From positions 1-34,955 of the forward strand of contig JAHFLT010000015.1 of NCBI GenBank assembly GCA_023264635.1: 34,955 nucleotides of DNA, in the 5' to 3' direction. This DNA comes from Candidatus Woesearchaeota archaeon. GTDB lineage: Archaea > Nanobdellota > Nanobdellia > Woesearchaeales > JAGVYF01. Every line of letters begins with the position of its first letter. The stretch's first letter is position 1. The translations under genes were made by a program, and so were the position numbers. Positions 2,275 to 5,961 of this stretch are shown here, one piece after another. The notes under the pieces are model-generated. The model made no database searches, was not told the DNA's origin, and was given only the letters and a program-made list of their open reading frames with translations.

Positions 2275-4020
2275 ATGCAAAAAGAGGTGTATCATTATCC
2301 TACGTTGCATTTTCTTTCAGATGTATGGATATTTATCAATCCCTATACAGTCACGTTTATCGCCTGGTCTCTTGTCCGGTCATTTGCCAGTGTATTGGAG
2401 CTTGCCATCCCAATACTACTCGGAAAGATTATTGACATATTGACAAAATCACAAGACAACACTTTCCTGATTAAGCTGGTTATAGGGGTGGCTGTCATTG
2501 AACTACTTGGACCTACAATCCGTTTGAAGAGTAAATATCATCTGGGGATATTAGGCACAAGGATAGCTAAAGATATCCGTCTTAAGGGGCTTGCCAAGGT
2601 CCTGGAACTTGATTTGGCGTGGCACGAGGAGACTATGTCTGGTGCGGTCATGCAGAAAGTATCTACTGGTGCGGACTCTATAAAAGGACTGATAAAATTT
2701 CTTCGGGAGGATGGTTACACAATCCTGATAAAAATTACAGGAGCACTTGTTGTATTTGGTTATCTGCATATTAAATATCTCCTTCTTCTCGTTGCAGCTA
2801 TTGTATCCTATCTGTGGGTGGAATATCATTGGGATATTATTATCAATCAGCAAAAGAATCGTGAAAGTGCTACTCGTGAACAGTTATTCGGAAGGACGTA
2901 TGAGTTTGCGCATAATATACGTACTGTGAAGGCGTTGGGGATAGAGTCTGCAGTGAAAAGAAAAGCCGCTGATGCAGAAGAGAAACTGTTCGGTATCTCT
3001 AATGAAGTCAGTCTGGTAATGAATCGTAAATGGCGCATCATGCAGACAGTTGTAGCTTTTTTCAAGAGTTTGTTTATCATAGTTGTCTGCATAGATGTCC
3101 TCCGTGGATACCTCTCAGCCGGTATGGTACTGGTTTATATTACTTATTTTCACCAGGTCCATGGTGCACTTAATAATATTTCAGACTCGGTGGATGGTCT
3201 TATTGAGAACAAAAATGGCCTTTATCGTTTCATGACAGTATTAGATAGCCATTCAGAAGTTGATGCTGGTAAGAATCTTCGTTCGCTTTCATCTATTGAA
3301 TCAACCCAGTTCAGTAACGTCTCATTCAGATACAAAGAGAAAAAAGTTCTCTCTGGATTGAATTTCTGCATAAATAAAGGCGAGCGTATAGGTATTGTTG
3401 GCCAGTCTGGCGTCGGAAAATCAACTCTCTTCAAGCTTCTGCTCAAGCTCTATCTCCCAACGCAAGGTGACATATTAATCAACAGTCTCCCTATACAAAA
3501 AATAAAGAGGGACTCTATTACAAAATATCTCACTATTGTTCCGCAGGATACAGAAGTATTTAATTTGTCATTTAAGGATAATATCACTCTTACTGACACG
3601 AAAGTGAATAATTATCGATACAAGCGTGCCTTGGATATATCAGCATGCAGTGATATCATTAAACGGCTGTCCACGGGAGACGAGACACTTATCGGAGAAA
3701 AGGGAGTTCGTTTATCGGGTGGAGAGAGACAGCGACTTGGCATCGCGCGTGCATTGTATAAAGATGCTGATGTTATCTTGCTGGATGAAGCAACAAGCCA
3801 TCTCGACTCGAAGACAGAGCAACAGATAATATCTGCGATGGCCCTTCATCTGGGTAAAAAGACACTGATAGTCATTGCCCATCGTCTTTCAACACTGCGC
3901 ACAATGGACAGGATACTCGTCTTTTCAAGAGGAAGGATAGCCGAAGAAGGGACATATAGTGACCTCCTCGCATCACATGGACTTTTTCACCGACTACACA
4001 AACTACAGGCTACTTCGTGA
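2275..4020 (+). CDS. ABC exporter, fused membrane and ATPase half-transporter
   Basis: A 581-residue ABCB-type half transporter that would act as a dimer. The first ~300 residues contain hydrophobic membrane segments with the usual exporter coupling regions. The ATPase domain (about 345-581) has Walker A GQSGVGKST (~376), Q-loop PQDTE, signature LSGGERQR (~480), Walker B VILLDEA, D-loop SHLD and the H-loop His in IAHRL, so it looks catalytically intact. The substrate cannot be read from sequence. The 3' end overlaps the convergent rRNA methyltransferase gene by 11 bp. Exporters next to such methyltransferases occur in drug-resistance loci, but a functional link here is only a guess. Confidence 0.9.
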   Translation: MQKEVYHYPTLHFLSDVWIFINPYTVTFIAWSLVRSFASVLELAIPILLGKIIDILTKSQDNTFLIKLVIGVAVIELLGPTIRLKSKYHLGILGTRIAKDIRLKGLAKVLELDLAWHEETMSGAVMQKVSTGADSIKGLIKFLREDGYTILIKITGALVVFGYLHIKYLLLLVAAIVSYLWVEYHWDIIINQQKNRESATREQLFGRTYEFAHNIRTVKALGIESAVKRKAADAEEKLFGISNEVSLVMNRKWRIMQTVVAFFKSLFIIVVCIDVLRGYLSAGMVLVYITYFHQVHGALNNISDSVDGLIENKNGLYRFMTVLDSHSEVDAGKNLRSLSSIESTQFSNVSFRYKEKKVLSGLNFCINKGERIGIVGQSGVGKSTLFKLLLKLYLPTQGDILINSLPIQKIKRDSITKYLTIVPQDTEVFNLSFKDNITLTDTKVNNYRYKRALDISACSDIIKRLSTGDETLIGEKGVRLSGGERQRLGIARALYKDADVILLDEATSHLDSKTEQQIISAMALHLGKKTLIVIAHRLSTLRTMDRILVFSRGRIAEEGTYSDLLASHGLFHRLHKLQATS

Positions 4021-4867
4021 CGACATAAAACAGCTCATTCCCGAATTCCTCGATAGTAATTTCCCAGCCATTGTCTTCACATATCTTCTCAAACCACAAT
4101 CTCCGCGTCTTCTTCATACGCTTCCCGGATAAAGTTTTGGTAGAGAAGCTGACGATAAGATGAGATGCATTGACAAGAGGCAGTATCCTCCGTGAAACAT
4201 TCCTCTCCAGATATTCAAGGGTATCCAATAATTTCCAGAGAAGACATACATCCGCTTTCAGAGTGCTCAACTTCTCTTTTTCGTTGATAACATCCAGTTG
4301 TATAACCTCTCCTTTTATTCCAGCAAGAACAAAATACTCCCTAATCATCCTGCAATCATCGATAGTGATTTCAGTTGCAATATACTTGGGGGTGCTTTCC
4401 ATCCACGGATAACTGAAGGGATTCAAGCCACACGACACGTCAAGTAATGTTGCTGGCATTCCTGTATGTGCGAAGAGGTGCTTGTAGAGTGAGGGATAAA
4501 ACGGAAGCCGTTCCTTGGTCGATGTGTGGGTGGAAAGTATTTTCTTATGTGCTTCTGTATCCACGTGATAGTCACGGTAAGTCTTTTTCAATTCATCAAA
4601 AGCCTTAGCGCGAGCCGCAAGCTGCTGCTGGAATGTTCCGTATACAGCATGTAAATCAGCACGCACTGCTTTAAGCAGAAACTCATACTCCTTTGAGCGT
4701 GAAAACTGTGCAAATGAACGCGTCTCCTCTATTTTCTTAGCTATCTCTTTTCTTTTCTCGATAAAAAATAGAACTCTCTCACCAATCCACCGCTCTTCAA
4801 CAGCACTTATCTCTTTCTTCGCCTTTATAGCAGTAACCAATTCTGGCAATAGACCCGTAAGATTCAT
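4010..4867 (-). CDS. 16S rRNA methyltransferase of the RmtB/ArmA/FmrO family
   Basis: A 285-residue SAM-dependent methyltransferase that matches the aminoglycoside-resistance family acting on N7 of G1405 in the decoding site. Hallmarks seen: a helical N-terminal rRNA-binding region, LSTHTSTKERLPF (family: LSxHxSTKERL), SAM motif LLDVSCGLNPF (family: VLDxACGLNPL), then LLWKLLDTLE, VSFSTKTLSGK (family: VSFPTxSLGGR) and GNELFYVVTK at the C-terminus. Family members in bacteria confer high-level aminoglycoside resistance. The role in an archaeon is unknown and could be housekeeping rRNA modification. The ATG overlaps the rtcA stop codon by 4 bp (ATGA), so the two are translationally coupled. Confidence 0.88.
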   Translation of the reverse strand: MNLTGLLPELVTAIKAKKEISAVEERWIGERVLFFIEKRKEIAKKIEETRSFAQFSRSKEYEFLLKAVRADLHAVYGTFQQQLAARAKAFDELKKTYRDYHVDTEAHKKILSTHTSTKERLPFYPSLYKHLFAHTGMPATLLDVSCGLNPFSYPWMESTPKYIATEITIDDCRMIREYFVLAGIKGEVIQLDVINEKEKLSTLKADVCLLWKLLDTLEYLERNVSRRILPLVNASHLIVSFSTKTLSGKRMKKTRRLWFEKICEDNGWEITIEEFGNELFYVVTK

Positions 4868-5961
4868 AGGCGTTCCTCTCGCGTATGCATGACAGAAATG
4901 CAGTTCCTCTCTACGCTGAAAACCGGTCCCAGAAAATGTTCAATAATGTACATGTTAGTTTTGGTGTGCATGCTTAATGTACTGGTGCACAGTTTTCCAC
5001 CAGCTAAAGCGAGGTACAGCAGAAGATTATCAGCAAGATACACATCCACTGCTGCGCTGCTTTCTATCTCCATAAGCAACTTTTTTGCTGCTTCCTCTCC
5101 CACGACCTCTGCTTTTTTTCCTTTCTCTCCCAGTGCATCAGCTCCAAGTCTTATGGGGTTCCTGATATCCTCTTCTTCTTTTCCGAACATTGCATGGAGT
5201 GTAATGCCAGAGCCCGTAGATAACGTGTCCTGATATTGTGTCTCAATAATCACTGGACAGTTAAGCTTTTTCACCATAAACTGCGCAGCATGCGCCTGTC
5301 TTTCTGCAACTTTCGCACCTTGCAGATCAATCGATGCGTGTGAGATTCCCTTTATGCACAATAAACTTTCTCGTTTACTGAGTGCATACGGTTTGCATCT
5401 CTTACGCACGTTCATAAGGAAATCATCAAAACTATGTTCGTTTCGCTTAATCATTGGCTTGATTTTTACCTCCACCAGCCCAGCTCCTTTTGGGTAATAT
5501 CCACGTCTTACTAGTTTCACATCAATTTTTGCAAATCGTAATAATTGTGGAAATAAAACGTGCTGCATATAATCTATAGGCATTGCCCATGCAACATCTG
5601 TTCCTCCAACAAGAGTCAATGAAACACGCTTGCCAGCAAAGAGCAATGGCGGCATGAGTGATTGTAGAAGCAGTGAGATAGATCCTGCAGTTCCGATGTC
5701 TATGGTAATTTTGTGATGGCTAACTGGTTTTGGATGAAAGACAATTTCTGTAGAACCTAGTTTTGCTCCTTCACATTCCGAGCCGCATAGCTCACCAAGA
5801 GTCATGATTGCTGTAAGATGTTGCGCTTTTAATCCTACATCTTTTCGTCCTTTTCTGATATCTGTACATATAAATGGAATGCCTGTTACTGTTGATAGCG
5901 CTAATGCTGTTCGGACAATCTGTCCTCCCCCTTCAAGATAGGAACCGTCAATGGCGAGCAT
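4864..5961 (-). CDS. rtcA: RNA 3'-terminal phosphate cyclase
   Basis: Converts RNA 3'-phosphate to 2',3'-cyclic phosphate using ATP through an enzyme-AMP intermediate. The 365-residue length is typical. Motifs seen: N-terminal DGSYLEGGGQIVRTALAL, KAQHLT, GTAGSISLLLQ, GGTDVAWAMPIDY, RRGYYPKGAG, and a C-terminal SMHTKTN segment whose His fits the adenylated catalytic histidine. A TTTAAAAA TATA-like box at about 5983-5993 and no ribosome binding site suggest a leaderless start. It is the first gene of a two-gene operon with the 16S rRNA methyltransferase. No rtcB ligase is in the window. Confidence 0.95.
   Translation of the reverse strand: MLAIDGSYLEGGGQIVRTALALSTVTGIPFICTDIRKGRKDVGLKAQHLTAIMTLGELCGSECEGAKLGSTEIVFHPKPVSHHKITIDIGTAGSISLLLQSLMPPLLFAGKRVSLTLVGGTDVAWAMPIDYMQHVLFPQLLRFAKIDVKLVRRGYYPKGAGLVEVKIKPMIKRNEHSFDDFLMNVRKRCKPYALSKRESLLCIKGISHASIDLQGAKVAERQAHAAQFMVKKLNCPVIIETQYQDTLSTGSGITLHAMFGKEEEDIRNPIRLGADALGEKGKKAEVVGEEAAKKLLMEIESSAAVDVYLADNLLLYLALAGGKLCTSTLSMHTKTNMYIIEHFLGPVFSVERNCISVMHTREERL

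Follow-up and report, generated by a model that had tools for sequence, protein, structure and literature searches.

What would a distant relative of the bacterial ArmA and Rmt resistance methyltransferases do in a tiny, uncultured archaeon? The question is raised by a gene on a 34,955-nucleotide stretch of DNA from Candidatus Woesearchaeota archaeon (contig JAHFLT010000015.1, hereafter the window), which is contig 42 of a 1.3-Mb genome that is 96% complete. In bacteria, methylation of N7 of G1405 in 16S ribosomal RNA (rRNA) blocks 4,6-disubstituted aminoglycosides. The mark has been regarded as a trait of resistance, and E. coli expressing it pays a fitness cost (PMC12406665). We found that the archaeal gene is old and chromosomal and occurs throughout its lineage, often beside genes of ribosome assembly or rescue, and it therefore probably has a native job in ribosome maturation. 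The reading that we favor with fair confidence is that of a housekeeping S-adenosylmethionine (SAM)-dependent 16S rRNA methyltransferase of the 30S subunit, which would methylate a base of the decoding region in late maturation, most likely at N7 of G1405.

An Archaeal Clade of PF07091

The gene is a single open reading frame (ORF) with an ATG start, and the following features were assigned to it.

4010..4867, minus strand: PF07091 (FmrO/Rmt-like) methyltransferase gene of the archaeal clade, 285 amino acids (ORF, profile matches, and tree)
4505..4528, minus strand: HTSTKERL motif, residues 114-121 (alignment)
4415..4441, minus strand: DVSCGLNPF, SAM-binding motif I, residues 143-151 (alignment)
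4094..4150, minus strand: loop SFSTKTLSGKRMKKTRRLW, residues 240-258, aligned with bacterial SFPxxSLxGRxxGMxxxYxxxF; GMxxxY is absent and the loop is shorter in the archaeal clade

PF07091 was the sole Pfam match of the protein (E = 1.1e-24, 87.7 bits against a gathering cut-off of 27 bits, profile positions 33-255 of 255), and the generic Rmt model of NCBIfam, NF000466, matched it at E = 1.1e-43 (149.4 bits). The best match in the PDB was Sgm (3lcu, E = 2.9e-24, residues 65-285), the closest solved relatives being Sgm, RmtF, and RmtC-type chains, and the plasmid-borne RmtC, RmtD, RmtE, RmtF, ArmA, and RmtB matched the protein at 28-31% identity. These results bear out the original prediction of an RmtB/ArmA/FmrO-family gene at this position, and the family motifs on which it relied (HTSTKERL, DVSCGLNPF, VSFSTKTLSGK, and GNELFYVVTK) are all present in the ORF. 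Membership of the fold family is established by sequence.

When the archaeal and bacterial profiles were aligned with each other, the alignment ran end to end over 258 columns (probability 100, E = 8e-59), and it covered both the C-terminal SAM domain and the N-terminal domain, which is predicted to be of the 30S-docking type and whose conservation is established by this alignment. The conserved SAM and core residues are likewise established: the archaeal clade retains H114, S116, E119, R120, D143, G147, N149, P150, K212, and E278. Of these, H114, S116, E119, and R120 are conserved to 89% or more in archaea, and the bacterial-side enzymes show no variation at these four positions.

Distribution and Inheritance

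PF07091 was found in 135 of the 279 genomes of the same phylum (Woesearchaeota/Pacearchaeota/Nanoarchaeota-type), and a profile built for the archaeal proteins gave a strong match (E < 1e-20) in 140 of them, matches at E 1e-3 to 1e-8 being left out of the gene counts. The gene is patchy by family, near-constant in some families and never present in others. Among named genomes, PF07091 was found in Woesearchaeota, Pacearchaeota, and Nanoarchaeota metagenome-assembled genomes (MAGs), then in Chloroflexota, Patescibacteria, Armatimonadota, and Bacillota. The family had been described beforehand as known mainly from actinobacterial producers and resistance plasmids, a description at odds with its presence in 51 of 251 Chloroflexota genomes; in a Patescibacteria-type group, it was present in 2 of 239. 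It was found in none of 14 control genomes, several of them archaeal (including M. jannaschii, H. volcanii, and M. acetivorans), through which archaeal phyla besides the host phylum were surveyed. No viral relatives of the methyltransferase were found in a search for them.

In a tree of 68 archaeal proteins, the 14 families with at least two members required 14 changes, for a minimum of 13 and a mean of 33.6 after shuffling; inheritance is thus mainly vertical at the family level. In a more careful tree of 47 proteins, a branch supported at 100/99 separated the 26 archaeal proteins from every bacterial and resistance enzyme, a split with which a quick tree of 60 rows agreed. The 47-protein tree is unrooted and carries no direction for any ancient transfer. 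The presence of the gene in about half of the 279 genomes, the tree that follows family boundaries, and the well-supported archaeal clade show that the gene is lineage-wide and, as had been anticipated, chromosomal and old; in the phylogeny proposed as a check, the archaeal proteins are separate from every bacterial or resistance enzyme. Lineage-wide, mostly vertical inheritance is established, and recent acquisition from bacteria is ruled out by the tree and the distribution. The only exceptions that group with the bacterial side are divergent second PF07091 copies without HxSTxERL in two genomes of one genus, G035 and G247 (L003 and L009).

Gene Neighborhood

Neighbors were clustered over 131 distinct loci. 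In 20 of them the methyltransferase gene is immediately preceded, on its own strand, by the gene for Pelota (TIGR00111, 226 bits), mostly with an overlap of 13 bp; this linkage was seen in six families, in all sampled members of each, and includes the named relatives L078 and L079. The gene for aDim2 (a KRR1/Pno1-type KH protein, arCOG04150) lies directly upstream at 11 loci and one gene further at 4, and genes for the Rio1 kinase and aIF1A are found near the methyltransferase at loci of this type. Both aDim2 and Rio1 have roles in small-subunit maturation. The window's family has one other genus, in which ABCE1/RLI is the adjoining gene. These neighbors are genes of ribosome rescue, ribosome recycling, and 30S assembly, and these neighborhoods of 30S biogenesis and ribosome rescue are established. 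Judged by this context, a native role at the ribosome is likely.

In the window itself, two genes overlap the methyltransferase gene.

4864..5961, minus strand: RtcA-type RNA 3'-terminal phosphate cyclase (profile match), with a 4-bp overlap with the methyltransferase start
2275..4020, plus strand: ABC exporter-type protein, convergent, with an 11-bp overlap with the methyltransferase 3' end

The coupling to a core RNA-processing gene had been taken as a feature of the archaeal homolog. RtcA adjoins the gene in 3 of 156 loci, which belong to the window's genus and to one distant locus, and RtcA partnership as a general context is thereby ruled out. The ABC exporter-type neighbor is regarded as unrelated to the methyltransferase function. 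An archaeal host is supported by the uL10 gene of the window and by ORFs resembling L12, aRF1, a histone, and eIF5A (recognized by eye); an archaeal 16S rRNA gene is present in the genome.

KsgA/Dim1 was also considered. This 16S rRNA adenosine dimethyltransferase resembles the proposed enzyme in acting in late small-subunit maturation on the same 3' region, but differs in family and target. KsgA/Dim1 is reported missing from N. equitans and from certain further nano-sized archaea (PMC7897474), in agreement with the strong matches that we obtained in 61 of the 279 phylum genomes, compared with 140 for the gene studied here. No association between the two genes was detected across the 279 genomes (Fisher p = 0.25), ruling out compensation for KsgA, and no clear KsgA/Dim1 copy was found in the window genome.

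The Target Base

We infer the activity, the stage of the substrate, the modified atom, and the base. The enzyme would dock on the 30S subunit through its Rmt-type N-terminal domain and, once docked, would methylate a decoding-region base late in 30S maturation, the atom being most likely N7 of G1405. G1405 is the leading candidate for the exact base, with about an even chance of being correct. The 16S rRNA of the window genome has G1405, U1406, C1407, and A1408, as do 19 other gene-positive 16S sequences read directly; G1405 was thus found in 20 of 21, the exception being G010, which has A1405. A pattern scan of the 279 genomes detected a base other than G at 1405 in five of them, in every case A1405 paired with U1496. 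These 16S loci are L227 (G056), L228 (G200), L229 (G010), L230 (G272), and L231 (G218), G1405-C1496 being otherwise nearly universal.

Several observations weigh against a housekeeping methyltransferase of G1405. Gene neighborhood is circumstantial as evidence of function, and the score of the protein on NF000466 does not reach the equivalog cut-off of 250 bits, members from Chloroflexota and Patescibacteria scoring 229-244 bits. More directly, the GMxxxY loop, which corresponds to G244-M245...Y249 of RmtC, was present in 16 of 16 bacterial-side enzymes and in 0 of 113 archaeal ones. We take M245 of RmtC to be a residue that contacts the flipped G1405. Nearly all of the archaeal proteins have a target-side loop shortened by 1-2 residues, and in five it is shortened by 3-4. 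Moreover, G010, G056, and G200 have the gene yet carry A1405-U1496, which in G272 and G218 occurs without it. Misbinned 16S sequences are an unlikely cause in G056 and G200: G056 has a single Kae1 gene, which is located on the 16S contig and has its best matches within its own family (71% and 64%), and tetranucleotide composition ties the 16S and enzyme contigs together in both genomes, the result for G010 being less clear. The enzymes of G056 and G200 keep the core residues, with C146S and D206G, respectively, whereas that of G010 departs from the core at more positions; a comparison of residues revealed no enzyme change common to the three. These genomes suggest either that G1405 is not the target, or not the only one, or that these archaea can do without the mark and the enzyme has so far escaped decay. 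The proposal of a native decoding-site modification was retained as regards a likely ribosomal role, whereas the assignment to G1405 was weakened by the loss of GMxxxY in 113 of 113 archaeal sequences and by the three gene-positive genomes with A1405-U1496.

A possible, though tentative, variant is a native 30S-maturation methyltransferase that, by means of its own recognition loop, has a target other than G1405 or tolerates A at 1405. In its stricter form, which we consider somewhat unlikely, the reshaped loop would direct the archaeal clade to another 30S base near the same docking site. This would account for the clade-wide loss of GMxxxY with a loop shortened by 1-2 residues, for the intact-looking enzymes L052 and L054 in A1405-U1496 genomes, and for the count of A1405 genomes, which is no lower among those with the gene (3) than among those lacking it (2), numbers too small for a test of dependence. 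However, the Rmt-type N-terminal domain and core have been kept, G1405 is present in all but one of the gene-positive 16S sequences read directly, and the change from G1405 to A may be recent or the enzyme may be decaying. If the variant holds in either form, a family now known for antibiotic resistance would also include an ancient housekeeping branch acting on a decoding-center base; in many of these archaea, which lack KsgA/Dim1, the enzyme would carry out one of a small number of protein-only methylations in the 30S 3' domain. The A1405-U1496 genomes that retain the enzyme make the question of the target directly testable.

It is improbable that the protein, having kept only the Rmt fold, methylates a different RNA or a ribosome-rescue substrate together with Pelota/ABCE1 or RtcA. 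The overlap with Pelota in 20 distinct loci, the ABCE1 neighbor, and the RtcA overlap in the window's genus would fit such a role, but the N-terminal domain of the 30S-docking type is conserved and 30S assembly (aDim2, Rio1, and aIF1A) is the other major context of the gene. Finally, a resistance gene that guards the archaeon from the aminoglycosides of its neighbors, like bacterial ArmA/Rmt, is likewise improbable despite the homology and a host A site with A1408 and G1405, given the lineage-wide distribution with a family-level vertical signal, the separation of the archaeal clade from every resistance enzyme, and the recurrence of translation genes as neighbors.

Two further features were noticed close to this site. 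The 16S sequences of G035 and G247 (L207 and L212) have U1404-A1497 and A1498, directly adjoining G1405. In L201 (G065) and L202 (G048), the sequence just upstream of position 1400 departs from the universal CACACACCG, perhaps at an intron boundary.

Relation to Known Systems

With ArmA/RmtA-H and Sgm/FmrO (PF07091, NF000466), the archaeal proteins have in common the domain, the full-length profile including the N-terminal domain, the SAM motif, and the core residues. They differ in being about 21-31% identical to these enzymes and below the equivalog cut-off, in forming their own clade (100/99), in lacking GMxxxY from a shorter loop that is followed in many of them by an R.W motif, and in being encoded by a chromosomal, lineage-wide gene. 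The chromosomal PF07091 genes of Chloroflexota, scattered Patescibacteria, Armatimonadota, and Bacillota resemble the archaeal gene in lying outside plasmids and antibiotic producers, but they fall on the bacterial side with Sgm and Rmt and have kept GMxxxY.

Podar et al. (2013) listed 15 Nanoarchaeota-specific genes common to N. equitans and Nst1, one of which is a homolog of a bacterial 16S rRNA methyltransferase, mentioned in one sentence that cites the Sgm structure (PMC3655853). By its description, this homolog is similar to the gene of the window, but it was reported without an analysis of distribution, context, clade signature, or target site. We found no later functional work on the archaeal homolog in the open-access literature, and the distribution, the contexts, the clade signature, and the conflict over G1405 appear to be new. 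The occurrence of a chromosomal, lineage-wide branch in archaea, with links to 30S assembly and ribosome rescue, suggests a native role for the fold as well, and it provides material for asking what the enzyme does to decoding.

On the bacterial side, a tandem pair of PF07091 genes with a 4-bp overlap was seen in an Anaerolineaceae MAG (L135:3860-5487), and closely spaced pairs also occur in the Chloroflexota genomes G695 and G727. The plasmid genes rmtD2 and rmtE2 (L032 and L034) are both preceded by a gene for Tgt (tRNA-guanosine transglycosylase).
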